Below, piece by piece: positions 9,916 through 46,681 of a stretch of DNA of 52,532 nt. The notes beneath the pieces were generated by a model. It ran no database searches and was not told the DNA's origin. It was given only the letters and a program-made list of their open reading frames with translations. The translations under genes and the position numbers were made by a program. The stretch's first letter is position 1, and each line of letters opens with the position of its first letter. The DNA is taken from NCBI GenBank assembly GCA_014860115.1, contig JACZKK010000032.1, positions 1 through 52,532 of the forward strand. Direction: 5' to 3'. The DNA is from Ignavibacteriaceae bacterium. GTDB lineage: Bacteria; Bacteroidota; Ignavibacteria; Ignavibacteriales; Ignavibacteriaceae.

Positions 9916-10063
9916 TAATTTAAGAATCGGAATCCTGTCATATCTCATTACTGATTCTGTTAGTCTTAAAAATCCTCAAGCACTTCCGTTTATTACTTAA
10001 AAAGTTTTACCCTGCTTGACTTTAGTAATAAAAAAATAACTATCAAAAATAAAAAGGTACAAA

Positions 10064-10696
10064 ATGAAAAAACTAAAAGTTTCCATATTCTCTTTATTAT
10101 TCATCCTATTCCTGTCAGGAATTAATTTTTCTCAAACCACACATGATGTGACAGTTACCAATTTTTCGTTTTCCCCGGGAGAGTTAACAATTACAGTTGG
10201 TGATGCTGTAAGATGGACAAATGTTCTTGGTACTCACAATGTTAAAGCGGATGATAACAGCTTCACAAGCGGTCCGGCAGCACCGGCACCGTGGGAATTT
10301 ACACATACCTTTACTACTGTCGGTCTTCATCCTTACTATTGTGAACCACATGGTGGGCCGGGTGGAACAGGAATGGCGGCCGTAGTCATTGTACAAAGTC
10401 CGGTTAGTGTTGATGATGAAAAAATAATAGCAGATAAGTTTGAGCTCCTGCAGAACTATCCAAATCCATTTAACCCGAGCACCAATATCGGATATCGGAT
10501 TTCGGATCGCGGGTTTGTTTCTTTAAAAGTTTACAACATTCTTGGTGATGAAATTGCCACATTGGTAAACGAAGAGAAGGAACAAGGAGTTTACAATATA
10601 ACTTTTGATGCATCGGGTTTATCCAGCGGTATGTATTTGTATAAACTCCAGGCTGGTTCATTTGTGGAGATGAAGAAGATGATCATCATCAAATAA
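10064..10696 (+). CDS. Secreted cupredoxin with type IX sorting domain
   Basis: The protein has 210 residues. Residues 1-24 are a signal peptide. Residues ~25-115 are a plastocyanin-like domain that begins VTNFSFSPGELTITVGDAVRWTN. The four type 1 copper ligands are visible: His in LGTHNV, Cys and His in YYCEPHGG, and Met in GTGMAA. Residues ~125-210 are a type IX secretion C-terminal sorting domain (LQNYPNPFNPSTNIGYRI, ending KMIIIK). This targets the protein through the T9SS to the cell surface or medium. It is probably an extracellular electron carrier or copper-binding protein. It is followed 21 bp later by the DUF4412 gene, so the two may be co-expressed. Confidence 0.9.
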   Translation: MKKLKVSIFSLLFILFLSGINFSQTTHDVTVTNFSFSPGELTITVGDAVRWTNVLGTHNVKADDNSFTSGPAAPAPWEFTHTFTTVGLHPYYCEPHGGPGGTGMAAVVIVQSPVSVDDEKIIADKFELLQNYPNPFNPSTNIGYRISDRGFVSLKVYNILGDEIATLVNEEKEQGVYNITFDASGLSSGMYLYKLQAGSFVEMKKMIIIK

Positions 10697-10717
10697 TAAA
10701 TCAAATAGGAGGATATA

Positions 10718-11356
10718 ATGCAGACATCAAAATCGCTGTTCGCCTTAATATTTTTTCTTCTGGCAGAAATAAGTTTTGCACAGGGAACATTCGAGGGTAA
10801 GATTACGATAGAAGTTGAAGCAGATGGAGAAAAACAGGTAATTAACTATCTGGTAAAAGATTTAAGATTTAGGATGGAAACCCCGGATGCAGATGGAGCA
10901 ATGGTATATGACAGCCATGTAAATAAAATGTATATAATTATGGATGAGCAGCAAGCCTATATGGAAAACTTCATGCTTCCGGAAACGGATAAAAGTACCG
11001 GCAGCTATACTAATACCGGGGAGACAAAAAATTTACTAGGATATAGCTGTGAGAAATTCCTGTTTCAGCAGGATGACACAAAGGGAGAAGCATGGATGAC
11101 AAAAGAATTAGGTGGATTCATTTTATTTGGCGATCTTCGTCAGCAGCAGTTGAATATACCGAGCTGGAAAAGCGAACTTCTTGAAGCAGGATATTTTCCT
11201 TTGCAGGTAGCCGAAACGGATGATGACGCTAATATTTTGAGCACGTTCAAGGTTACGGTGGTGGTTCCCCAGAAATTAGATGCGGGGTTGTTTGTACCCC
11301 CATCTTCTTATAAGAAATTTGAAATGCCATCAATGAATTTTGACAGCGTAAAGTAA
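10718..11356 (+). CDS. Exported DUF4412 family protein
   Basis: The 212-residue protein has an N-terminal signal peptide cut near EISFAQG (residue ~22). The mature beta-rich domain fits DUF4412: FEGKITIEVEADGEKQVINY, then KDLRFRMETPDADG, a MVYDSHVNKMYIIMDEQQAY segment, and a YSCEKFLFQ-like Cys strand followed by AWMTKELG. Proteins of this family are periplasmic or surface-associated and uncharacterised. GGAGG lies 6 bases before the ATG, and the gene starts 21 bp after the cupredoxin gene. The transcript probably ends at the hairpin at 11387. Confidence 0.75.
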   Translation: MQTSKSLFALIFFLLAEISFAQGTFEGKITIEVEADGEKQVINYLVKDLRFRMETPDADGAMVYDSHVNKMYIIMDEQQAYMENFMLPETDKSTGSYTNTGETKNLLGYSCEKFLFQQDDTKGEAWMTKELGGFILFGDLRQQQLNIPSWKSELLEAGYFPLQVAETDDDANILSTFKVTVVVPQKLDAGLFVPPSSYKKFEMPSMNFDSVK

Positions 11357-11386
11357 ATTGAATTTGATAAAATAAAGAGTGCAGTT

Positions 11387-11413
11387 TTCCCTCCTCTTGG
11401 TGTGAGGAGGGAA
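11387..11413. terminator. Bidirectional hairpin terminator between convergent genes
   Basis: A perfect 10-bp stem, TTCCCTCCTC (11387-11396) with GAGGAGGGAA (11404-11413), lies between the convergent DUF4412 and GIY-YIG genes. The 7-base loop and position fit a shared terminator; the flanking T-run is short. Confidence 0.65.
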
Positions 11414-11446
11414 TAAACTATTTTCTACCCGACCTTCATATTTCAA

Positions 11447-11797
11447 TCATTTCTTGTTATAAAAAGTTACCCCCTCACTCTTCAGTTTTTCAATCCACAT
11501 TGCTTCAAGAGTCTCAAGCTCAGCTCGTAATTCCCTGTCGGTTTCGTCCTTAACTTCAATTTGGTCAAGAATAAAAATTTCAAAATTCTCTTTACCAAGT
11601 TGCTTATAATTATTTGCCAATTTGTCGTATGTATGACTACCCATCTCCAGCTCAAAAGTGATGCCCCTAATTTTTGCAGGCAGATTAATCGATGTACCGA
11701 TAAACATTTTGTTATCAAGTTTGTTCTTAACTGCATACAGGCCGGCAGGATGTTTTTGATTTTTATACTCTTTTTTGATTTCCTTTTTATTAATCAT
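11447..11797 (-). CDS. GIY-YIG-like protein, paralogue of 23912-24262
   Basis: The 116-residue protein has the two short motifs of the GIY-YIG nuclease fold, GLY (in HPAGLYAVKN) and FIG (in KMFIG) 9 residues later. A basic stretch LPAKIRGITFELEMGSH carries the likely catalytic Arg, and Glu-rich helices follow. Canonical members cut DNA with a Tyr-Arg-Glu active site, but small stand-alone proteins of this type are uncharacterised. A close paralogue of equal length lies at 23912-24262; the C-termini EKLKSEGVTFYNKK are identical. The gene converges with the DUF4412 gene across a hairpin terminator. Confidence 0.8.
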   Translation of the reverse strand: MINKKEIKKEYKNQKHPAGLYAVKNKLDNKMFIGTSINLPAKIRGITFELEMGSHTYDKLANNYKQLGKENFEIFILDQIEVKDETDRELRAELETLEAMWIEKLKSEGVTFYNKK

Positions 11798-11979
11798 AAT
11801 GATTCATATTATTTTTTTCAATTGATTACCGAAAACTTATCCATCCCAATGGCTAATATCAAACTTCTCATTTTTTTAAAGGTTAACAGATCGGCAGCCA
11901 TTATCCTTCTCATTTATCATACTTGGCTCCCCTTCCAGTATTATCTATTTTTGCTCAACAAAAAAAGAACTATTACTAA

Positions 11980-13665
11980 ATGAGCAACGAACCAAACAAA
12001 ATTATTTACTCTATGGTTGGGGTAAGTAAATTCTACAACAACAAACCAATTCTTAAAGATATTTATCTGTCATATTTCTACGGAGCTAAAATTGGTGTAA
12101 TCGGCTTAAACGGTTCCGGTAAATCATCGCTCCTAAAAATTCTTGCGGGAGTTGATAAAAACATAAACGGTGAGACGGTTATTTCTCCCGGTTTTACAAT
12201 AGGCTATCTTGAACAGGAACCGCAGCTTAATGATATAAAAACTGTAAGAGAAATTGTTCAGGAAGGCGTTCAAGCCATTGTTGACATTCTAAGGGAGTTT
12301 GATGAAATAAATGCAAAATTTGCCGAACCAATGGATGATGATGAAATGACCAGGCTTCTTGAAAGACAGGGTGAAGTTCAGGAAAAAATTGATGCACTGG
12401 GCGGATGGGATCTGGATGCACGACTTGAAATGGCAATGGATGCTTTACGATGTCCCCCTCCGGATACTTTGTGTAAAGTTCTTTCCGGCGGAGAACGGCG
12501 AAGAGTTGCGCTTTGCAGATTACTTCTTCAAAAACCTGATATACTTTTGCTCGATGAACCAACGAATCATCTGGATGCAGAAACAGTTGCCTGGCTTGAA
12601 CATCATCTGCAAAAGTATGAAGGGACAGTAATTGCAGTAACGCACGATAGATATTTTCTAGATAATGTTGCCGGATGGATACTTGAACTTGATCGTGGTG
12701 AAGGAATTCCGTGGAAAGGAAATTATTCATCATGGCTTGAACAGAAACAAGAGCGATTGCGTGTTGAAGAAAAACGTGAAAGCGAAAGACAAAAAACTTT
12801 GCAGCGTGAACTTGAGTGGATTAGAATGAGTCCGAAAGCCCGTCATGCAAAATCAAAATCAAGGATCACTTCTTATGAAAATCTTCTTAGAGAAGAAAAA
12901 GAGAAAGGTCAGAAAGAACTTGAGCTTTACATTCCGGTTGCAGATCGGCTTGGAGATATTGTAATCGAAACCGAAAATCTTAGCAAAGCATACGGCGACA
13001 ATATTTTGATAGAGGGTTTAAACTTCTCAATTCCTCCTGGTGCTGTTGTTGGTATTATCGGACCCAACGGTGCAGGTAAAACAACATTATTCAGAATGAT
13101 AACAGGTTCAGAAAAACCAGATTCCGGAAATTTAAAAATTGGCGCTACGGTTAAGATGTCTTATGTTGATCAATCGAGAGATACGTTAAATGCTGAGAAA
13201 AGTATCTGGGAATTAATTTCCGGAGGCGAAGACACAATAATGCTGGGCAACAGGCAGGTTAATTCGCGTGCATATGTTGCGCAGTTTAATTTTTCTGGGG
13301 CAGATCAACAAAAAAAAGTCAACTTGCTTTCCGGTGGAGAAAGAAATCGTGTTCATCTTGCAATGATGCTGAAACAAGGCGCTAATGTTCTTCTGCTTGA
13401 TGAACCCACAAACGATCTCGATGTTAATACGCTGCGTGCACTTGAAGAAGGGATTGAAAAATTTGCCGGATGTGTTCTTGTGATTAGTCACGACAGGTGG
13501 TTTTTGGATAGAATAGCAACACACATTTTAGCTTTTGAAGGAGATAGCAAGGTTGTATGGTTTGATGGCAATTATACAGAGTATGAAGAAAAGCGAAAAG
13601 AACGATTGGGTGTTGAGGCTGACCAACCTCATAGAATTAAATACAGACATTTAACGAGAAGTTAG
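11980..13665 (+). CDS. ettA: Energy-dependent translational throttle protein EttA (ABC-F)
   Basis: The 561-residue ABC-F protein has two nucleotide-binding domains and no membrane segments. Walker A motifs are GLNGSGKSS and GPNGAGKTT, signatures LSGGERRR and LSGGERNR, and Walker B LLLDEPTNHLD and LLLDEPTNDLD. The arm insertion is in domain 1, and the charged inter-domain linker ARHAKSKSRITSYE binds the ribosome. EttA binds the ribosomal E site and gates entry into elongation according to the ATP/ADP ratio. Length and the GGWDLDARLEMAMDALRCP region fit EttA rather than Uup or an antibiotic-resistance ABC-F. It appears to be a single gene; no clear Shine-Dalgarno precedes the ATG. Confidence 0.95.
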   Translation: MSNEPNKIIYSMVGVSKFYNNKPILKDIYLSYFYGAKIGVIGLNGSGKSSLLKILAGVDKNINGETVISPGFTIGYLEQEPQLNDIKTVREIVQEGVQAIVDILREFDEINAKFAEPMDDDEMTRLLERQGEVQEKIDALGGWDLDARLEMAMDALRCPPPDTLCKVLSGGERRRVALCRLLLQKPDILLLDEPTNHLDAETVAWLEHHLQKYEGTVIAVTHDRYFLDNVAGWILELDRGEGIPWKGNYSSWLEQKQERLRVEEKRESERQKTLQRELEWIRMSPKARHAKSKSRITSYENLLREEKEKGQKELELYIPVADRLGDIVIETENLSKAYGDNILIEGLNFSIPPGAVVGIIGPNGAGKTTLFRMITGSEKPDSGNLKIGATVKMSYVDQSRDTLNAEKSIWELISGGEDTIMLGNRQVNSRAYVAQFNFSGADQQKKVNLLSGGERNRVHLAMMLKQGANVLLLDEPTNDLDVNTLRALEEGIEKFAGCVLVISHDRWFLDRIATHILAFEGDSKVVWFDGNYTEYEEKRKERLGVEADQPHRIKYRHLTRS

Positions 13666-35839: not shown

Positions 35840-36916
35840 TTACTCTCTCCCCTTCATCCTTTTTACATCTTTCATAGTTGAATGAAAGAACTTGCCAAAC
35901 TTTTTATCTTTCTGGCGCTTTTCAACGTAAGACATTTCATTATATAGCGACTCTTTATAAATTTTTAGGTAGTTGTTGTATCTCTCTTCTGAAATTTCTT
36001 TGCGGTACAGAGCATCCAGCACTGCACAACCGATTTCAACTGTATGTGTGCAGTCTTTGTATTTGCACTGATCTGAAAGCTCATCAATTTCATTGAAGGT
36101 ATCGCCAAGTCCGGACTCATTTGAGATTACTCCAAGCTCACGCATTCCCGGGTTATCTATTATGATCACACCGTTCTCCAGAACGATAAGTTCTCGTCGT
36201 GTTGTGGTGTGTTTTCCTCTTCCATCCTTTTCTCTTATCGGCTGAGTTTTGTAAAGCTCCTGGTGAATTAAATTATTCAGCAAGGTTGTTTTGCCAACTC
36301 CCGACGAACCAAGCAGACAGTAAGTTTTAAATGGCTCAAAAAAAGTTTTAATGTTTTCTATATCGCTTTGGCTGTTATTGCTGAAAGATGCAATAGTAAC
36401 CTCGGGCATAATTTTGCGGATATCATTTGTCTTCTTTTCAATTTCTTCTTTGCTGATAAGATCGCTTTTACTTAAGAATATTGCCGGAGTTATTTTGCCT
36501 TCGTTTATCATTACGAGGTAACGCTCGAGTCTTCGCAAGTTGAAATTAATATCGAGCGATTGCATAATGATTGCAGTATCAATATTCGCAGCGATAAGCT
36601 GATAATCAACTTTTTTGCCGGATGCTTTTCTTTTTAGTAATGATTTACGCGGAAGGATGTCGTGAATAATTGCCAGCTCATCATCATCAAACAATTGAGC
36701 ATAAACCCAATCGCCGATAGCAGGCAGATCAAGCGAGTCTTCTGAGTTGAACAAAAACTTTCCTGTCAGCTCTGCATAAATATCTTTTACACCGTTGGAG
36801 ATAACAAAGCTGTTTTTATTTACGCTAATTACTCTAACGATGTTAAAATCAGTTTTTGATAAATCAACTTTATCCTGAAACCAATTATCGATGCCGAGTT
36901 TTTGTAGGTTGTTCAT
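35840..36916 (-). CDS. rsgA: Ribosome small subunit-dependent GTPase RsgA
   Basis: The 358-residue protein is a circularly permuted GTPase that helps late maturation of the 30S subunit. The order seen is an N-terminal OB-fold (~20-85), G4 SKSD, G1 LLGSSGVGKTTLLNNL, a GKHTTTR switch, G3 IDNPGMRELG and the C-terminal zinc region with CKYKDCTH and the Cys in GCAVLDAL. Length is typical. The intact gene is flanked by partial copies of its own two ends: a C-terminal piece 2.2 kb downstream and an N-terminal piece 0.5 kb upstream. It precedes the HAD and DUF2938 genes, possibly as one unit. Confidence 0.95.
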   Translation of the reverse strand: MNNLQKLGIDNWFQDKVDLSKTDFNIVRVISVNKNSFVISNGVKDIYAELTGKFLFNSEDSLDLPAIGDWVYAQLFDDDELAIIHDILPRKSLLKRKASGKKVDYQLIAANIDTAIIMQSLDINFNLRRLERYLVMINEGKITPAIFLSKSDLISKEEIEKKTNDIRKIMPEVTIASFSNNSQSDIENIKTFFEPFKTYCLLGSSGVGKTTLLNNLIHQELYKTQPIREKDGRGKHTTTRRELIVLENGVIIIDNPGMRELGVISNESGLGDTFNEIDELSDQCKYKDCTHTVEIGCAVLDALYRKEISEERYNNYLKIYKESLYNEMSYVEKRQKDKKFGKFFHSTMKDVKRMKGRE

Positions 36917-38227: not shown

Positions 38228-38514
38228 CAAACTTCCCCATTCTTTCCAAAGGAAACAATGGAAGAAATAATTTTTAACCCACGACTTCAGTCGTGGGGAA
38301 CAAACGCGGAACGAATTCCTGCAGAAACCGATTCATCGGTTTTCAATACTCAATCCATACTTCTCGGTAAATCTTGAAAACGGTTAAAACCGTTTAAGTA
38401 TAATTATTATATCATTTTATACCCACGGACCTGCCTTTGCCGGCCGGCAGGTAAATCCGTGGGCTAATATTTTATTTCAAACTTCGCTATTCTTTTCCGA
38501 GAAAGCAACGGGAG
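38228..38514. repeat. Composite palindromic repeat S-Q-S, copy 1
   Basis: A short repeat S (38228-38264) and its second copy (38478-38514) flank four hairpins in order. These are CCCACGACTTCAGTCGTGGG at 38278-38297, AAACCGAT/ATCGGTTT at 38325-38342, AAACGGTT/AACCGTTT at 38378-38395, and CCCACGGA/TCCGTGGG at 38422-38463. The loop of the last hairpin holds an extra palindrome, CCTGCC/GGCAGG at 38430-38451, absent from copy 2 (41810-42074). No coding frame lies in this gap. Confidence 0.85.
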
Positions 38515-38555
38515 AGATTTATACAACGCCTCACTTTACTTTATTTGGATTTTAA

Positions 38556-39098
38556 TTAGACTGCTTTAGTATAAGCTTCTTTCAGCCATTCTTTTAGTTC
38601 TTTATTTATTTCCTGAACTTCAGATATTTGTACACGATGAGTGCACATAGTTCCAAACGGACCGGAGTTTTCAAGTCTTTTAGTAATAGGCTTATCTTTT
38701 AGTTTTAGTCCCAAATCAATTCTGGTTTTAGATGCCGGTTTTATTAAAGCAAACTGTCTTTTTCTTATTATGCTAACACTACCCTTCTTCGGTTCGATTT
38801 TTACATCTTTCCCAAAGGCTTTTACCACAGAAATTAATTCATTATAAATTGGCAATAAGTTTTCTTTACCTCTGTATTGATTGCTGACTAGATCTTCAGT
38901 ATTGTCATTCTCTGTTTTAAATAGCTGAACGATTGTATTTGCAAATCCGTGTGTTACACCGAATTCCTTCTTTAAAAAATTAACCCATTCCGAATGTTTT
39001 GAAAAAGATTTTTTAGCTAATAGCGCTTTCCATTGTTCCAATGATTTCCCGGTTTTTTCCGGCATGTTGTCAATCATTGTTTGAAGTGCTTTATCCAT
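38556..39098 (-). CDS. DUF4287/DUF5655 protein
   Basis: The 180-residue protein matches two small domains often found together. DUF4287 is at the N-terminus (MIDNMPEKTGKSLEQWKALL; KEFGVTHGFANTIVQLF). DUF5655 is at the C-terminus (IYNELISVVKAFGKDVKIEP; VSIIRKRQFALIKPASKTRI; GTMCTHRVQISE). Neither has a known reaction. I start at ATG 39098, with AAGGAG 6 bases upstream and the family's usual N-terminus. The ATG 17 codons earlier would add a Ser/Thr/Asn-rich tail. Confidence 0.85.
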   Translation of the reverse strand: MDKALQTMIDNMPEKTGKSLEQWKALLAKKSFSKHSEWVNFLKKEFGVTHGFANTIVQLFKTENDNTEDLVSNQYRGKENLLPIYNELISVVKAFGKDVKIEPKKGSVSIIRKRQFALIKPASKTRIDLGLKLKDKPITKRLENSGPFGTMCTHRVQISEVQEINKELKEWLKEAYTKAV

Positions 39099-39173
39099 CT
39101 TCAACTCCTTTTTTAAATTAGTACTGGATGATTTTTGGAATTCATTCATTTTAATTCTTTAAACTAAAAATTA

Positions 39174-39199
39174 GAATTCTTTTCAAAGAAAACAACCGG
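39174..39199 (+). repeat. Short palindromic repeat S, partial copy
   Basis: GAATTCTTTTCAAAGAAAAC matches the core of the S repeat (TTCTTT-CC-AAAGAA plus AACAAC). It has the same orientation as all other copies and lies just upstream of the DUF4287 gene. Confidence 0.65.
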
Positions 39200-39355
39200 C
39201 TCTTTTGGATTCTAAACATTTATGGTTATCTATATGATTAATTATTGAATACTTTGTGAATGTTCAATAATGATTTTCTGTTCATAGTAATTGTTGGCTT
39301 TGTCTTTTCAGTTGCAGAAGCACCTAATAAGTTTAATAACATACAGGGATAAAAA

Positions 39356-39538
39356 GTGAAAAATGAAAAAAAATTAGTACTCGGAATGGCAATTGGAGTC
39401 GCAATTGGAACTGCCATAGGAGTCTCAACAGATAATCTGGGTCTTTGGATTAGTCTTGGCATAGCTATAGGTGCTGCACTCGGTTTTACGTTTAGTGAAA
39501 AGAAGAAAAAAGATAAAAGCGATAATCCGGATACTTAA
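39356..39538 (+). CDS. Small glycine-zipper membrane protein
   Basis: The 60-residue protein has two hydrophobic segments with regular Gly/Ala spacing (LGMAIGVAIGTAIGV and WISLGIAIGAALGFTF), joined by a short STDNLG turn. The tail is Lys/Asp-rich (SEKKKKDKSDNPDT). The start is GTG 39356, with CAGGGA about 8 bases upstream; the nearby ATG is out of frame. It parallels the 76-residue protein at 1867-2097 in size and design. Function is unknown. Confidence 0.65.
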   Translation: MKNEKKLVLGMAIGVAIGTAIGVSTDNLGLWISLGIAIGAALGFTFSEKKKKDKSDNPDT

Positions 39539-39626
39539 AAGATTAAAAGCAGTACATGGCAGAACTACAGATAGTATTCAATCAATCACTTAACGCAGAC
39601 AAAATTCGATTCGATAATAAAAATCA

Positions 39627-39650
39627 GAATTCTTTCCAAAGAAAACAACA
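39627..39650 (+). repeat. Short palindromic repeat S, partial copy
   Basis: GAATTCTTTCCAAAGAAAAC contains the S core TTCTTT-CC-AAAGAA. It lies between the glycine-zipper gene and the terminator of the NmrA-like gene. Confidence 0.65.
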
Positions 39651-39666
39651 AATGGTTTAAAAAAAT

Positions 39667-39688
39667 GGGACACAATAAACTATGTCCC
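39667..39688 (-). terminator. Rho-independent terminator of the NmrA-like gene
   Basis: GGGACA (39667-39672) pairs with TGTCCC (39683-39688). On the minus strand the stem is followed by ATTTTTTTAAA, a good U-run, 22 bases after the stop at 39710. Confidence 0.75.
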
Positions 39689-39709
39689 TGCGAATAAAGA
39701 AATCGGAGC

Positions 39710-40537
39710 TTAAAAAGAGTCCCAGACTCCTGTCTCTGCTGTTTCTTTTACATATTCTGAAAAATCTTTGGCTTCCCTGCCAAGAACTTTTTCTATATCG
39801 TTTGTTATTACTGAATTCTCCTCAACCAGAACTTTTGTAAAGAGATAATCGATCAGCCAGATATAATCATCCGGGACATTGTTTTCAGAAAGTAATCTTT
39901 TGTATTCGTTCATTGTGATCGAATCGAATTTTATATTTCTGCCTGTAGATTCTGAGATTTCTTCTATCACTTTTTTAAATGTAAGTTGCCGCGGTCCCGT
40001 AAGTTCATAAGTTTTGCCATTGTGCTTTTCATTCGTCAAAACTTCAACAGCAACATCAGCAATATCATCTGTATCGACAAACGGAATGCGAGTCTCTGCT
40101 TTCGGTAAAGCAACCTGACCGGCTTTTATCGGATCCAGGAAAAAACTTTCACTGAAATTCTGATTGAACCAGCTTGCACGAATAATTGTCCAATCCGCAC
40201 CAGATTTTTTAACTACATCTTCGCATAGCTCTGCTTCTTTTTCTCCTTTACCGGATAGGAGGACTAGTTTCTTCACTCTGCTTTTAACTGCTAGAGAAGT
40301 AAACTCTTCAATAGCTTTGCGTGCACCGGGAACAGCCAAATCGGGTTGAAAAGTTATGTAGACAGAATCAATTCCTTCTAAGGCATCTTTCCAGGTTTTG
40401 GGATTTTCCCAATCGAATGAAGGATTTTCATTCCGTGAACCTATGCGCACAGATCTGCCAAGTTCTGTCAACCCTTCAACAACCTTACGACCCGTTTTTC
40501 CGTTTCCGCCAATCACTAAAATCTTTTTCTTTTCCAT
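39710..40537 (-). CDS. NmrA-like NAD(P)-binding protein
   Basis: The 275-residue atypical short-chain dehydrogenase has the nucleotide loop ILVIGGNGKTGRKVVEGL. It also has SRVKKLVLLSGKGEKEAELC, WTIIRASWFNQNFSESF and IPFVDTDDIADVAVEVL, a pattern shared by NmrA-type and NAD(P)H-quinone/azoreductase-like proteins. It may act as a redox-sensing regulator or a reductase. It follows the DUF1772 gene by 32 bp on the same strand. Such pairs often sit next to an AraC or TetR regulator gene; here only an AraC remnant is left upstream. Confidence 0.88.
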   Translation of the reverse strand: MEKKKILVIGGNGKTGRKVVEGLTELGRSVRIGSRNENPSFDWENPKTWKDALEGIDSVYITFQPDLAVPGARKAIEEFTSLAVKSRVKKLVLLSGKGEKEAELCEDVVKKSGADWTIIRASWFNQNFSESFFLDPIKAGQVALPKAETRIPFVDTDDIADVAVEVLTNEKHNGKTYELTGPRQLTFKKVIEEISESTGRNIKFDSITMNEYKRLLSENNVPDDYIWLIDYLFTKVLVEENSVITNDIEKVLGREAKDFSEYVKETAETGVWDSF

Positions 40538-40569
40538 GATTTATTCTCCTTTATATTTATTATTATTTA

Positions 40570-41061
40570 TTATATGCTGCCATTATAAGTACAAGCTATC
40601 ACGAGTGAAAGAAATGAAAGTGAAGAACAGATTGTTCTGATAGTATTGAAAGTGTTCCATTTACTTTCAAATGCTAACCGGAATGAAGCCATTTGCTCTG
40701 CACTCATTGTTTCGATCTTCAATGCTTCCAATGTATTATTCAAAGGAATATTTCCTAAAAAAGTAACGAGCATAACTCCAGCTAAATACAGAACGGTTGC
40801 AGAAAGAACATACCAGAACTGCACCGGGGTTGGGGAATTATAGCTAAAGTAAGAAAGAAGAATCAGCAAAATCACCAATCCCATAAACACGATAAGAAAT
40901 GAAGGATTAATAATTGCCCTGTTCATCGATTGGAAAGCACTCAAGTATTTCTCATCGCCGAGTTTTGCTAATCCTGGTGTAACAGAGATAGACCAGGAGT
41001 AGAACAATCCAGCCATCAAACCAGTAAATAGGGTTGTTATAACCAGTAATATTGAATTCAT
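40570..41061 (-). CDS. DUF1772 (anthrone oxygenase-like) membrane protein
   Basis: The 163-residue protein has four hydrophobic segments. The DUF1772 marks are FTGLMAGLFYSWSISVTPGL near the start, FQSMNRAIINPSFLIVFMG, and the conserved GNIPLNNTLE loop. Some fungal homologues support anthrone oxidation; bacterial members are uncharacterised. It is the upstream gene of a probable operon with the NmrA-like gene, and lies 88 bp after the AraC-type remnant. Confidence 0.85.
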   Translation of the reverse strand: MNSILLVITTLFTGLMAGLFYSWSISVTPGLAKLGDEKYLSAFQSMNRAIINPSFLIVFMGLVILLILLSYFSYNSPTPVQFWYVLSATVLYLAGVMLVTFLGNIPLNNTLEALKIETMSAEQMASFRLAFESKWNTFNTIRTICSSLSFLSLVIACTYNGSI

Positions 41062-41149
41062 TTTTATTTCTCCTTTCTTTTAAGACAAGACTTATAACAG
41101 ATCAATAGTTAAAATTGAACTAATCCGTCAAAGTGATTAAAAGCAGAGA

Positions 41150-41323
41150 TCACGCCGAAAGCTGCTGCTGGAATTCTTTAGGAGTATAGATCGAAGAGAT
41201 AATACCGGGACAACCATCCGCATAAAATGGATATTCATTTGCTTTATCTTTTTCATTATTCTTGAGTAAAAAAATATCCTTTACAAAAGGCTCAATGCTT
41301 TTAGGGACTAGCAAAAGTTTCAT
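41150..41323 (-). pseudogene. AraC-type regulator reduced to its N- and C-terminal ends
   Basis: The 57-codon frame begins like DUF6597-type AraC regulators (PKSIEPFVKDIFLLKN, then YPFYADGCPGII). After SSI it continues directly with YTPKEFQQQLSA, which resembles the last residues of the helix-turn-helix domain of such proteins (GYTPKEF is a common ending). About 200 residues, including the whole DNA-binding domain, would be missing, with the frame kept across the junction. It lies upstream of, and on the same strand as, the DUF1772-NmrA pair, where an intact regulator would be expected. Confidence 0.6.
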
Positions 41324-41425
41324 CGCTCTCACTGCATATTAATATCTCATTTATTTACAAGATAAAAATAATTTTAAAGAAATGATATGAAATTGAAGTG
41401 CCAACTTTTATCAATTTTACTTGTC

Positions 41426-41453
41426 GATTCTTTCAAAAGAAGACAACGGGGAG
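41426..41453 (+). repeat. Short palindromic repeat S, partial copy
   Basis: GATTCTTTCAAAAGAAGACA plus ACGGGGAG matches S with a few changes. It lies 18 bp from the stop of the minus-strand gene at 41471. Confidence 0.6.
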
Positions 41454-41470
41454 TAGAAAGAATTTGTTCT

Positions 41471-41752
41471 TTAACTTACTTCTGGTGAGTCAATAACTTT
41501 CCATTTGAACATTTCTTTGAAATCTTCAAAACAAGTTTGACAGATCCAACGATAATCATCAGTTGTAGCATAACCTGACCGTAATGCATCTTCAATTCTC
41601 GTATCTAAACTGAATTTTGCCCAACAGAACTCACAGTGATCGTGATCCCATTCAGGATTATATGGATTCTGTCTATATAGTCTTCGAACTAAAGTGAGAC
41701 CCATCAAATATTTTTCTTGACCTTGAAGTCTCCAATCATCATTTTCTATCAT
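41471..41752 (-). CDS. Small protein with two CxxC zinc-ribbon-like knuckles
   Basis: The 93-residue protein has HCEFC at about residue 41 and ICQTC at about residue 71, a four-Cys arrangement suited to one zinc ion. The opening NDDWRLQGQEKYLMGLTLV and the closing FEDFKEMFKWKVI belong to a small uncharacterised family I have seen in varied bacteria. It has no signal or membrane segment. It is a single gene flanked on both sides by S repeats, which suggests an accessory unit. Confidence 0.7.
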   Translation of the reverse strand: MIENDDWRLQGQEKYLMGLTLVRRLYRQNPYNPEWDHDHCEFCWAKFSLDTRIEDALRSGYATTDDYRWICQTCFEDFKEMFKWKVIDSPEVS

Positions 41753-41809
41753 ACTATTATTCCACTAACTTTGTTATGAAATCAAATCCCCCAAAAATGT
41801 CATACTTCT

Positions 41810-42074
41810 CAAACTTCCCAATTCTCCCTAAAGAAAACAACGGGAGGGATAATTATTAACCCACGACTTCAGTCGTGGGAAACAAACGCAGAACGAATTC
41901 CCTCAGAAACCGATTCATCGGTTTGTTACACTTAGTCCACACTTCTTTGTAAATCTTGAAAACGGTTAAAACCGTTGGGATATAATTAATATTTCATTTT
42001 ATACCCACGGATGAATCCGTGGGCTAATATTCTACCTCAAACTTCCCCATTCTTTTCAAAGAAAAAAACGGGAA
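41810..42074. repeat. Composite palindromic repeat S-Q-S, copy 2
   Basis: S copies at 41810-41846 and 42038-42074 flank the same four hairpins as at 38228-38514. They are CCCACGACTTCAGTCGTGGG (41860-41879), AAACCGAT/ATCGGTTT (41907-41924), AACGGTT/AACCGTT (41961-41976) and CCCACGGAT/ATCCGTGGG (42004-42023). Here the last hairpin has only a 2-base loop. The spacer sequences are also conserved, so the unit moved or was copied as a whole. Confidence 0.85.
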
Positions 42075-42099
42075 AGGATTAATTAAAACACACATTCGC

Positions 42100-42582
42100 T
42101 TATAATCCAAAATCACGATACAGTTTCCAAACACCGTCTTCTTTTTTCCAGACGACCAGATACCGGAATGTGTATTTTAATTCCCCCGCATCACTTCTGG
42201 CTTCAGCTGTACCCGTTTCAATTAGTAAATCACCATCAGCATTAAGTGTTATTGTTTTAAAAGTAAGATGCCGTGAATCATTTTCTATATCACTGCGGAT
42301 CCATTCTCCTGCTTTGGAAATTATTTTCTCTCCTTGGGTACACCCCATCATCCCATCACTGGCATACATCCCAGCGATCGACACCGAATCACCTTCCAAA
42401 AGGTATTTGGCATACAGAGCAATCCTGCTGTCAATTATCGGTCTTAATTCAATTATATCTGCAGAGGACAGATTAGAATCTGTTTTTGTAGTTTGAGCGA
42501 TAACAATTGAATTACAATAAAGAACTAAAATGCTTATTAGAATTAAACTAATTGTTGAGTGTGGTTTTTTCATATTATTCAT
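42100..42582 (-). CDS. Exported NTF2-like (SnoaL/DUF4440) protein
   Basis: The 160-residue protein has a signal peptide (LILISILVLYCNSIVIAQ). The NTF2-like domain follows: ELRPIIDSRIALYAKYLLEG, DSVSIAGMYASDGMMGCTQG, the strand LLIETGTAEARSDAG and KYTFRYLVVWKKEDGVWKLY. The function is unknown. The ATG at 42573 is an alternative start three codons in. S repeats lie at both ends of the gene (42038-42074 and 42634-42669). Confidence 0.75.
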   Translation of the reverse strand: MNNMKKPHSTISLILISILVLYCNSIVIAQTTKTDSNLSSADIIELRPIIDSRIALYAKYLLEGDSVSIAGMYASDGMMGCTQGEKIISKAGEWIRSDIENDSRHLTFKTITLNADGDLLIETGTAEARSDAGELKYTFRYLVVWKKEDGVWKLYRDFGL

Positions 42583-42633
42583 TTTTTAATGATTAAATAT
42601 TAACTATGTACTTACCAGGTGAAATGGTTGTTT

Positions 42634-42669
42634 AAACTTCCCAATTCTTTCCAAAGAAAACAACAGAAG
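42634..42669 (+). repeat. Short palindromic repeat S
   Basis: AAACTTCCCAATTCTTTCCA followed by AAGAAAACAACAGAAG is one of the best S copies. It lies 52 bp upstream of the NTF2-like gene. Confidence 0.75.
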
Positions 42670-42824
42670 TCTTAAATAATCTTTTTCCCATCTGTATATA
42701 ACCAGTTAAAATTCATTATTACACTTTATCATTTTCATTCTAATTATTTGGTTTACAATTACAATATTTTCGTAGTGTCATTTTTTCAGTAGTTAGATTT
42801 GTTTTTAATTTTAATGGGGGTAAA

Positions 42825-43880
42825 ATGAAACAAACAGTTATTTCGTTAAGAACAAATTTTTTCTTAACATTTCTTGCAATAGTATTTGCAATAGCACTTA
42901 CTTATGCTTCGGTTGAGCTGCCTATAATATTAAATTCATTTTTAAATCGTATTATTAATTTTCCCGGGTACGATTCGGCACACCCGATTCATTTACACAA
43001 GACAGCATCATTTTTAGATTCACATTACATCCGGATAATTGGATATGCTTGTCTTGCCATTATTGTTTTATTAATTGCTGCCGGTTTTATAACAAAAAAA
43101 AGCGGTCTTGTTTCAGCCGGTGCGATTGCAATTTTTCTTCCGGTGTTTGGTCACTTTTCGTTTAACATGTTTTTCCTTGCCGGATTAGGTGCAATGCGTA
43201 TTGTCTGGATGCCGATACTCGATATTTCATATGATGTTTTAAGACTGGGAGACATAGCATACTTACCATATATGATAATCGTCTACCTGCCTGCATTACT
43301 TAGAATAGATATCTCTACAGTTATCCCGTATATCATTATGACAAGCGGAATATTGATTTTTATACTTGGCACCCAGGCCTGGATGTTTACGAGGTTCAAT
43401 AAAAAGGGTGTAGCAACTTTCTGGATTTACAGGTTTTCGCGTCACCCCCAATATTTAGGATGGATCATCTGGAGTTATGGCTTATTAATTTACTTAATTC
43501 GGAATTCTTCTTTAGTACATTTTAAACTGACCTACGAAATGCCCAGCAGCCTTCCGTGGTTAATAACTTCTCTGGTGATCATTTGCGTTGCGTTACTTGA
43601 AGAAATAAAAATGAAACAAAAATTTCCCAAAGAGTATGAAAATTACAGGCGACAGGCTCCATTCCTTTTTCCGTTTCCGAAGTTTTTCTCCAGACTAATT
43701 ACCTTTCCTGTTAGATTAATCTTTAAAAAAGAACAGCCAGGAAGCGTAAAAGAAATTGTAATTATATTTTTTGTTTATCTGGGCTTATTAATTCTTCTTT
43801 CACTATTATTTAATGCTATCGACTTTTTACCACGTTCCGGCATATATGGTTTTCCTAGAAATGTTTTCCCGTTCGTGTAA
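42825..43880 (+). CDS. Polytopic membrane protein with ICMT/PEMT-like C-terminal part
   Basis: The 351-residue protein has about eight hydrophobic segments. Residues ~195-285 carry the isoprenylcysteine/phosphatidylethanolamine methyltransferase-like signature: FWIYRFSRHPQYLGWIIWSY, then LEEIKMKQKFPKEYENYRRQ and PFLFPFPKF. The N-terminal half adds membrane helices not found in the short member at 28271-28714. It probably methylates a membrane-embedded substrate with SAM, which is unproven. A GGGGG stretch lies 6 bases before the ATG. It is the only sizeable plus-strand gene of the repeat region. Confidence 0.8.
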   Translation: MKQTVISLRTNFFLTFLAIVFAIALTYASVELPIILNSFLNRIINFPGYDSAHPIHLHKTASFLDSHYIRIIGYACLAIIVLLIAAGFITKKSGLVSAGAIAIFLPVFGHFSFNMFFLAGLGAMRIVWMPILDISYDVLRLGDIAYLPYMIIVYLPALLRIDISTVIPYIIMTSGILIFILGTQAWMFTRFNKKGVATFWIYRFSRHPQYLGWIIWSYGLLIYLIRNSSLVHFKLTYEMPSSLPWLITSLVIICVALLEEIKMKQKFPKEYENYRRQAPFLFPFPKFFSRLITFPVRLIFKKEQPGSVKEIVIIFFVYLGLLILLSLLFNAIDFLPRSGIYGFPRNVFPFV

Positions 43881-43929
43881 ATCGTGGATTGTTTCAGAGT
43901 TAGTTAGGATAGTTCTTATATACTTTTTG

Positions 43930-43950
43930 CATTCCAAAGAAAACAACGAT
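43930..43950 (+). repeat. Short palindromic repeat S, partial copy
   Basis: GCATTCCAAAGAAAACAACG matches the right half of S. The left arm has decayed. It lies between the convergent ICMT-like and clpB genes. Confidence 0.5.
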
Positions 43951-43960
43951 TCTGAAATAA

Positions 43961-43989
43961 AAAACCGCAGAAGTTTTCTCCTGCGGGTT
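43961..43989 (-). terminator. Rho-independent terminator of clpB
   Basis: AACCGCAG (43963-43970) pairs with CTGCGGGTT (43981-43989), allowing one bulge. On the minus strand the stem runs into TTTTTTATTTC. It lies 77 bases after the clpB stop and can also act on the plus-strand gene. Confidence 0.7.
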
Positions 43990-44065: not shown

Positions 44066-46681
44066 TTATTTGCTGAACACCAGCTTTGCGCTGTCACCAA
44101 CAGATACTTTAATCGTATCACCGTTTACAAAGTTTCCTGCGAGCAATTCCTGCGATAACGGATTCACAAGATACTTTTGAATCGTTCGTTTTAAAGGTCT
44201 TGCACCGTAAGTTACATCATAACCAAGATTTGCAAGCCAGTCTTTTGCTTCATCGGAAACTTCTAAAGTCATTTCATTTTGCTTCAACGACTTTTGAACA
44301 TGGCCAAGCTGTATATCAACAATCTTTCTTATCTCTGTTCTCGAAAGAGGCTTGAAAAGAACAATCTCATCAATCCTGTTTAAAAACTCAGGACGGATTG
44401 TTTGTCTCAGCAAGTTCTGCATTTGCTGACGCAGTTCACCCATCAGCTCTTCAACATTATCTTCTTTGAAGAACTCAAGTTTCTCCTGTATGTAATGTGA
44501 GCCGATGTTCGACGTCATAATAATTATTGTATTCTTAAAGTTTACAGTACGTCCTTGGTTGTCGGTTAACCTGCCGTCATCAAGAACTTGCAGCAAAACG
44601 TTGAATACATCCGGATGAGCTTTTTCAATTTCATCAAGAAGAACAACTGAATACGGTCTTCTACGCACGGATTCGGTAAGCTGTCCGCCCTCTTCATATC
44701 CAACATATCCGGGAGGTGCGCCAATCAATCTGGAAACAGAAAACTTTTCCATATACTCGCTCATATCAATTCTTATCATTGCGTGTTCATCATCAAACAA
44801 AACTTCTGCAAGTGAACGCGCCAGCTCGGTTTTACCAACACCGGTTGTTCCAAGAAATATGAACGAACCAATAGGTTTGTTCATATCCTGCAGTCCAGAT
44901 CGCGAACGTCGAATTGCATTTGAAACTGCGGTAACAGCTTCGTCCTGTCCGATAACTCGTTTGTGTAGTTCATCTTCAAGTCGTAAAAGTTTGCTTCTCT
45001 CACTTTCAAGCATCTTGCTTACCGGAATGCCTGTCCATTTGGAAACTATCTCTGCAATATCTTCTGCATCGACTTCTTCCTTTAACATCTTCTTATCTTT
45101 TTGTGCATCGGCAAGTTTCTTAGTTTCTTGAGTCAGTTGCTTTTCGAGGTTTGTAATTTTTCCGTAACGGATTTCAGCTACCTTGCCAAGATTGCCTTCG
45201 CGCTCATAACGTTCAGCTTCAAGTTTAAGATTTTCAATTTCACTTTTCATCGATCGTATCTTCTGGATTTTTTCTTTCTCAAGATCCCAATGCATTTTAA
45301 GCTTTGTTCTTTCTTCATTCAGTTCACTCAATTCCTGTTGAAGCTCTTCTAATCTTTTAGCAGATGCTTCATCTTTTTCTCTTTTCAGAGCTTCTTTTTC
45401 AATCTCAAGCTGTTTTACTTTTCTTTCAAGCGTATCTAATTCTTCGGGCATTGAGTCAATCTCAATTCTCAATTTTGAAGCGGCTTCATCAATCAGATCA
45501 ATTGCTTTATCTGGAAGAAAACGATCAGTGATATATCTTTCTGAAAGCTGAGTTGCGGCAACGATTGCGCCATCGGTTATGCGAACACCGTGATGAACTT
45601 CGTATCTTTCTTTTAATCCACGCAGAATTGAAATTGTATCTTCCTCAGATGGTTCGCCAACAAGCACAGGTTGAAAACGTCTTTCGAGGGCAGCATCTTT
45701 TTCAATATGCTTTTTATATTCATCAAGTGTAGTTGCGCCGATAGCGTGTAATTCACCACGTGCAAGCGCAGGTTTTAAAATGTTTGCGGCATCCATTGCT
45801 CCTTGTGTTGCACCCGCACCGACAAGTGTATGAAGTTCATCTATAAAAAGAATAATCTCTCCGTTTGATTCCTGTACTTCTTTAATAACGGCTTTTAATC
45901 TTTCCTCAAACTGTCCTCGGAATTGTGAACCGGCAATAAGCGCTCCCATATCAAGCGCAACGATTCTTTTTGTTTTCAGATTTTCGGGGACATCACCGGA
46001 AACAATTCTGTGTGCTATTCCTTCTGCGATAGCTGTCTTCCCTACCCCGGGCTCACCGATTAACACCGGATTATTTTTTGTCCTTCTTGAAAGTACCTGA
46101 AGAACTCTTCTTATCTCTTCATCTCTTCCAATTACTGGATCGAGTTTTCCCTGCTTTACCAGATCGTTCAAATCTCTTCCATATTTTTCAAGAGATTGGT
46201 ATGTGTCTTCAGGATTTTGCGAAGTGACTCTTTGAGTTCCTCTTACAGTTTTGAGAGCTGAGAGAATATCATTGTAAGTTATTCCATTATCGCGAAGCAA
46301 TTGTCCTGTTTTACCTTTATCATTTGAAAGTGCAAGTAGAAGATGTTCTGTTGAAACATATTCATCTTTAAGATTGCGGGATTCTTCAGCAGCAGTATCG
46401 AAAAGTTTTGCGAGATTCTGACTCATCTGCTGATTACCCAAACCTGTTCCACTGACTTTTGGAAGAGTTTCGAGCAGTTCGTTAATTTTTAATTTTACTG
46501 CATTAAAATTTCCACCGGTTTTTTTGATTATTGATTCGGCAACGTTTCCGCTTTCCTGAACAATTGATGCGAGCAGATGTTCCGGTTCAACAATCTGGTT
46601 ATTATAGTTCTGTGCAATCTCAATTGCTGTTTGAACAATTTCCTGGGCTTTTACTGTTAGTCTATTAAAATTGAATGACAT
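44066..46681 (-). CDS. clpB: ATP-dependent disaggregase ClpB
   Basis: The 871-residue Hsp100 protein pulls aggregated proteins apart together with DnaK/DnaJ. The layout is an N-terminal Clp-N domain (~1-145) and AAA1 with Walker [14 protein letters not shown] and Walker [17 protein letters not shown]. The coiled-coil M-domain (~410-525, rich in Glu/Lys) distinguishes ClpB from ClpA/C. AAA2 follows with [14 protein letters not shown] and [15 protein letters not shown], then the small C-terminal domain [17 protein letters not shown]. No ClpP-binding loop is evident. It starts 20 bp after cbpA, so the two form an operon. Confidence 0.97.

Follow-up and report, generated by a model that had tools for sequence, protein, structure and literature searches.

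In textbooks, integrons are how bacteria gather single genes in a row. In the dif modules of Acinetobacter (XerCD pdif), discrete gene modules lie between short dyad sites and are served by a host recombinase in trans. Accretion of the staphylococcal cassette chromosome (SCC) type, or of islands at a single attB, adds units one after another at the end of one gene, leaving direct repeats between them. Here we describe an array of small gene units on contig JACZKK010000032.1 of an Ignavibacteriaceae bacterium (assembly GCA_014860115.1; 52,532 nucleotides, hereafter the window), in which nine copies of a dyad site separate the units next to the heat-shock gene clpB. It is a real, conserved gene-cassette array that works like an integron or a dif module, with sites that fit the tested definition of neither. 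We consider it probable that this chromosomal array was made by recombination within the sequence-conserved dyad site.

One account (PMC9024848) describes attC sites as varying in sequence while secondary structure is conserved. The array site is the reverse of this, being conserved in sequence, with no covarying hairpin and no RYYYAAC/GTTRRRY boxes. Like an integron or a cluster of attC sites lacking an integrase (CALIN), the array lines up small units, most of them of a single gene, and each unit has one site, always in one orientation; most of each site belongs to one neighbour, the locus is chromosomal and there are signs of horizontal exchange. Modular gene units appear to be exchanged at the site, judging from genome comparison, and as in a CALIN no integrase is linked. 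Unlike in an integron, five of the seven window genes run opposite to the site direction and IntI is not adjacent. With no attC boxes, no covarying hairpin and no linked integrase, the array therefore does not pass as an integron on the tests applied.

The array shares with dif modules the placing of separate gene units between short dyad sites, but its sites are chromosomal and all in one orientation, and none matched the consensus of dif, an 11-6-11 site with XerC and XerD half-sites, at up to three mismatches in four array genomes (the window genome G000, G035, G043 and G047), in a search that did not rise above its reversed-pattern control. A relation to dif was thus not seen with that search, although two of its matches (G032 and G047) are dif-like by eye. 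Serial insertion at one gene end and direct repeats between units are likewise shared with SCC-type accretion, but the array units measure ~0.2–4 kb, and searches of them turned up no tyrosine or serine recombinase gene. The large serine recombinase (PF00239) that an SCC-like system has in its host was not found anywhere in G000, G035 or G047, three of the five array genomes searched, or in the array-less G042; there were three matches in G043 and one in G061. Hairpins like those of repetitive extragenic palindromic (REP) sequences and IS200-like (Y1) genes lie inside some units, as in systems of REPs and REP-associated tyrosine transposases (RAYTs), but the joining site is a different sequence. 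Since that site also bounds REP-free units, the REPs look like cargo.

A directional site at one locus

The original prediction was of nine same-orientation palindromic repeats between genes, and the nine are where it placed them. They span 38228–43954, 5.7 kb of a 3.93-Mb assembly (222 contigs, the window being one entire contig), all on the plus strand and all intergenic. Nine of nine lie between the seven open reading frames (ORFs) taken as genes, which fill 68% of the span (P ~3e-5). The site is ~33 bp long, with the consensus AAACTTCCC-n-ATTCTTyCCAAAGAAAACAACGG. A 39-column weight matrix made from all copies scores the nine at 18.9–53.7, lowest at 43930. The next-best window matches score 4.0 (plus strand) and 7.2 (minus strand); the minus-strand match is one of the copies themselves, its palindrome read backwards. 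Across the whole genome, a 22-mer search with up to three mismatches, which overlooks the copies at 38478 and 43930, gave eight matches, seven in the cluster (all plus) and one stray elsewhere. The 39-column model (E ≤ 0.01) gave ten, the nine of the cluster and one partial stray. The matrix scores and genome-wide searches therefore uphold the nine repeats; the genome-wide consensus search suggested with the prediction returned a single cluster in one orientation, with no scatter.

The palindrome stands in part. Across 37 copies, pairing holds in 85.6% of cells of the inner palindrome but in only 54.5% of those of the outer CTTCCC/GGGAG arms, which are missing from the copies at 39174, 39627 and 43930. 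Mean column identity is 79% over 39 columns (alignment A2). Covariation of the named helices lay within the shuffle range on all five measures, the observed value being reached in 106–242 of 500 shuffles, and RNAalifold predicted 0 pairs for the same 37 copies. What is conserved in the inner palindrome is its sequence, not a covarying hairpin. These two results lend no structural support to a role of the site as RNA or hairpin, which we rejected, and an Rfam scan of the window at gathering scores found no match.

The predicted lack of attC boxes also proved correct. Scans of the window and of three related loci (L049, L051 and L054) found no RYYYAAC/GTTRRRY pair at the sites; some pairs fell inside cassettes. 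Relaxed box rules gave 14 pairs in the window, none within the array span, a chance-like result. Near the array, six IntI loci and six solo-recombinase loci, box pairs occurred at chance level and formed no array.

Strong copies of the site were found in ten of 80 family genomes (G000, G034, G035, G037, G038, G041, G043, G047, G055 and G061), in each at one locus and in one orientation, with weak strays elsewhere. Eight of the ten have at least two copies; G038 and G041 have one each, on contigs below 10 kb. The family model (E ≤ 1e-4) gave 37 matches, most of which went into building the model; 36 lie in clusters and one outside (G004). Among 391 genomes drawn from across the class, some of them from the family itself, stricter filters at the same threshold left six genomes with matches; five were already known, and one, in another family, had a single partial match. 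The exact site pattern occurred in nine stretches of a wider contig collection, namely two Ignavibacterium array contigs and seven single matches in other bacteria that are taken as chance. Phage carriage was considered and set aside, two exact site patterns giving 0 matches in viral contigs. A literature search found no account of this site or of a clpB-linked array in Ignavibacteria; it covered subscription papers poorly, so this absence speaks only weakly for novelty.

In seven of the ten array genomes clpB is on the array contig, always on the same side of the sites; the other three array contigs (<10 kb) show no clpB. It adjoins the last site in the window, G037, G043 and G055. Between clpB and the last site stand one cytochrome c-type gene in G035 and in G047, and several genes over ~7 kb in G061. 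An RsgA-like GTPase forms the other flank in six of 11 loci mapped. The window copy looks like a second RsgA paralogue, with a more distant match on contig C12 of the same genome. In two array-less genomes, G045 and G079, a single degenerate site directly abuts a terminator-like hairpin of clpB, as an empty anchor would be expected to do. A third, G049, has a single degenerate site with a similar abutting hairpin ~1.3 kb from the clpB terminator position.

Units and their junctions

A unit consists of one small gene, in some cases of several, or of a gene-less piece, and has one end in the core ATTCTTyCCAAAGAAAACAA. Gene content between the sites varies by genome. The window has DUF5655, NmrA, anthrone oxygenase, DUF4440 and ICMT-like genes (Table 1), and the other arrays have SnoaL, PIN, GNAT, AHSA1, glyoxalase-like, S41 peptidase, DUF559 and IS200-like genes, in a Pfam scan covering most ORFs of these related arrays. 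The turnover check proposed with the prediction thus came out in its favour, contents differing among related genomes while repeats and locus persist.

Several units occur in more than one context. The REP unit is present twice in the window and recurs in L053, in L054 and, shortened, in L051; the DUF559 unit is present twice within G043. Three window units recur in a second genome: DUF5655 in G034, cl9 in G037 and a 60-amino-acid gene in G061. For nine pairs of sites with a common left unit, identity is 0.77–0.88 at positions −40 to −9 and 0.28–0.41 after position 21. For 24 pairs with a common right unit, it is 0.32–0.45 upstream and 0.48–0.76 after, against an all-pair background of 0.29–0.41 and 0.29–0.50. 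The pairs were hand-picked, with the G043 duplicate pair excluded, and the G043 site near 10722 of L051 is outside alignment A2. Because similarity goes with the left unit as far as the core and with the right unit beyond, most of the core belongs to the left unit and exchange falls within the core. The two copies of the 60-amino-acid unit, from two genera (G000 and G061), share 63 identical bases ending in TTCTTTCCAAAGAAAACAA and are unrelated beyond. From GGGAGTAG inward, the two copies of the cl9 unit are almost the same, and the preceding core differs between their two contexts. The single cluster, the differing contents and the joining of units at the core together make the term cassette boundary well supported; that the boundary is of a new kind, as first proposed, is a reading.

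Two units are more alike than clpB is between the same genomes. As a measure we used third-position identity at unchanged residues, comparing the unit gene with clpB of the same two genomes. For cl9 this is 0.894 versus 0.636 for clpB (G000–G037; the clpB figure comes from 156 aligned residues), and for the 60-amino-acid gene 0.815 versus 0.601 (G000–G061). In the latter unit, the right part including the site core is 96% identical over 110 bp and the left part 77% over 161. That both units exceed clpB suggests that cl9 and the 60-amino-acid unit were exchanged horizontally.

Table 1. Features of the array locus in the window, and XerA-like genes at other loci
Feature	Position	Strand	Basis and remarks
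RsgA-like GTPase, left flank	35840..36916	-	Pfam
Site copy 1	38228..38266	+	A2 alignment row; matrix score 50.3
Gene-less unit, REP-like hairpins (CCCACGACTTCAGTCGTGGG and others)	38267..38477	.	Homologous to 41849-42037 and to units in L053, L054 and L051 (short)
Site copy 2	38478..38516	+	A2 alignment row; matrix score 41.2
DUF4287 + DUF5655 gene, 197 aa	38556..39149	-	Pfam; same cassette in L048 (G034)
Site copy 3 (39174 in the original prediction), left arm TAAAAATnAG type	39165..39203	+	A2 row; score 33.2
Glycine-rich membrane-like protein (our description), 60 aa	39356..39538	+	No Pfam match; also in L054 (G061) with other neighbours
Site copy 4 (39627 in the original prediction)	39618..39656	+	A2 row; matrix score 41.6
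NmrA/NAD(P)H-binding gene, 275 aa	39710..40537	-	Pfam
Anthrone oxygenase family (PF08592), 163 aa, second gene of NmrA cassette	40570..41061	-	Pfam
Site copy 5	41416..41454	+	A2 alignment row; matrix score 34.6
cl9, 93 aa	41471..41752	-	No Pfam match; same cassette in L050 (G037), different right neighbour
Site copy 6	41810..41848	+	A2 alignment row; matrix score 53.7
Second REP-hairpin unit copy	41849..42037	.	Homology to 38267-38477
Site copy 7	42038..42076	+	A2 alignment row; matrix score 51.2
DUF4440 gene, 160 aa	42100..42582	-	Pfam
Site copy 8	42633..42671	+	A2 row; score 49.0; top own-genome model match
ICMT/DUF1295-like gene, 351 aa	42825..43880	+	Weak Pfam matches
Site copy 9, degenerate left half, beside clpB terminator-like hairpin	43916..43954	+	A2 row; score 18.9; 21.3 bits
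clpB terminator-like hairpin, CCGCAG..CTGCGG then T run on - strand, abuts last site	43965..43986	-	Read from sequence
clpB, right flank	44066..46681	-	Pfam
XerA-like solo recombinases with upstream dyad	L254 9719-10537; L255 9599-10414; L259 near 9945-10688; L257 9345-10145; L258 246-1049

IS200-like (Y1) transposase genes occur in two arrays (L052 10709–11152 and L051 10097–10537), where each is bounded by sites as a unit. Beside them lie REP-like hairpins of the kind that make up gene-less units in other arrays, and the REP unit could be a RAYT unit in decay. A defence island was also considered and set aside; a scan of ten proteins gave an OLD/Gabija-like ATPase beside the G035 array and, for the window DUF5655 gene, one weak match to PDC-S18 (21.5 bits).

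Candidate enzymes

We propose that units would be inserted and shuffled by recombination inside the conserved site, and that the site near the clpB terminator would serve as the anchor next to which the array grows. Such recombination would be enzyme-driven and site-specific. The enzyme is most likely a tyrosine recombinase, and it would act in trans because none is encoded in the arrays searched. Tyrosine recombinases are present in nine of nine genomes searched.

A XerA-like solo recombinase, for which L192:1201-2019 was the query and NF040815 the closest NCBIfam model (below cut-off), is found in six of the ten array genomes versus seven of the 70 others (Fisher one-sided 0.0009, phylogeny ignored). 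The association has p 0.005 without the G043 copy, which is broken by stops, and p 0.009 among genomes at least 90% complete (4/6 versus 6/46). In four genomes with gene and array on one contig, the two lie ~50–140 kb apart. The gene was picked for its presence in four array genomes, phylogeny was ignored, and it was not found in the window genome at E ≤ 1e-45; it is therefore a lead only. The site model gave no good match near XerA-like genes (best E 0.058), and there is no canonical attC array beside the solo loci.

Several XerA-like solo genes have an AT-rich dyad upstream. It stops at a boundary of GTTAG type, which differs from the array site, and the sequence beyond is unrelated. These dyads are similar within L254/L255/L259 and within L257/L258. 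From its sequence, the arrangement looks like an attI with a first cassette.

The window genome also encodes an IntI-like protein (TIGR02249, 401 bits). At E ≤ 1e-60, IntI-like proteins occur in 26 of 80 genomes, five of ten with arrays versus 21 of 70 without (Fisher one-sided p 0.18); among those at least 90% complete the counts are 5/6 versus 16/46 (p 0.03), phylogeny being ignored in both. Their genes are on another contig or more than 1 Mb from the arrays (>1 Mb in the single-contig genomes G035 and G047), and none was found at that threshold in G043, an array genome in a single contig. The site model, run with default filters on 35 sources covering IntI loci, gave no match. Being unlinked, missing in G043 and weakly associated over all genomes, the IntI gene was set aside as the array enzyme. 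XerA-like and IntI-like proteins are both weak, post-hoc candidates.

IntI-like genes score above the TIGR02249 cut-off in 24 of the 80 genomes, and six loci examined are without an attC array. Tandem repeats lie beside some of these genes (upstream in L117 and L121), ~3 copies of 231 bp in G035 and a 21-bp repeat in G040.

In G043, the DUF559 unit and the start of the next REP unit are duplicated almost identically (L051, ~10680–12380). A recent rearrangement thus took place in that array, despite the broken XerA-like gene and with no IntI found.

Weighing the explanations

Several results weigh against an enzyme-made cassette array. The linked recombinase that was to be looked for did not turn up, as no tyrosine recombinase (PF00589) lies within the arrays of the seven array genomes searched (of ten) and no serine recombinase (PF00239) within those of the five searched. 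No accessory recombinase is common to all array genomes, and two groups that we label Xer-like are near-universal, each in six of seven array genomes compared. REP units make up six of the nine left-shared and 21 of the 24 right-shared pairs, and exchange is not placeable to one base, the centre of the cl9 core differing between its two contexts. Among 23 array-less clpB loci, a clear single site is seen only in G045, G079 and G049, with a weak trace in G042; the other 19 have no site within the ≤1.5 kb available. The DUF5655 unit exceeds clpB modestly (0.702 versus 0.551), and REP units, 79–81% identical between genomes versus 78–81% for clpB, show no excess.

Some of these points would suit passive repeats, where RecA or annealing-type recombination joins short repeats at a tolerant spot near clpB and no dedicated enzyme is involved. 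The missing linked enzyme and the REP units without excess similarity agree with it. So do the region left of the array, which is also variable and has no sites, and the genes between the last site and clpB in G061; the near-identical duplication in G043 could be unequal crossing over. Passive joining leaves unexplained why the core is conserved in sequence and orientation across genera. The copies are also short, their columns averaging the identity given above, and strong copies are lacking at other loci. We therefore regard passive repeats as unlikely, while giving them some weight.

Integron cargo comprises gene types like those of the array cassettes. This resemblance and the IntI-like protein of the window genome would fit a CALIN, a degenerate integron array with aberrant attC sites worked by an IntI-like protein elsewhere in the genome, and the completeness-restricted IntI count raises this explanation slightly. 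It is nevertheless improbable, given sites without box pairs or a covarying fold, an array in G043 without IntI at the threshold used, and a site model that matches nothing at the IntI loci. Least probable, and already disfavoured, is a small transposable or regulatory repeat behind genes with no cassette role, such as a miniature inverted-repeat transposable element (MITE), a REP or a terminator element. The sites do lie 3′ of most window genes, and REP-like hairpins and IS200-like genes accompany some units. Repeats of these types are usually scattered through genomes, whereas strong copies of the array site keep to a single locus and one orientation, and the two halves of the site follow different neighbours.

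Recombination within the conserved site thus remains our preferred explanation. A bolder version, which we hold tentatively and at somewhat less than an even chance, is a second, integron-independent cassette system with double-stranded dyad sites of conserved sequence and an anchor site near clpB, served in trans by a solo tyrosine recombinase of XerA-like type. Programs that search for the attC fold would be expected to miss such an array. The array site would offer a marker for locating more of them and a simple recombinase assay. If the explanation is true, a cassette array with sequence-conserved sites would be a second solution to the integron's task, in little-studied environmental bacteria.

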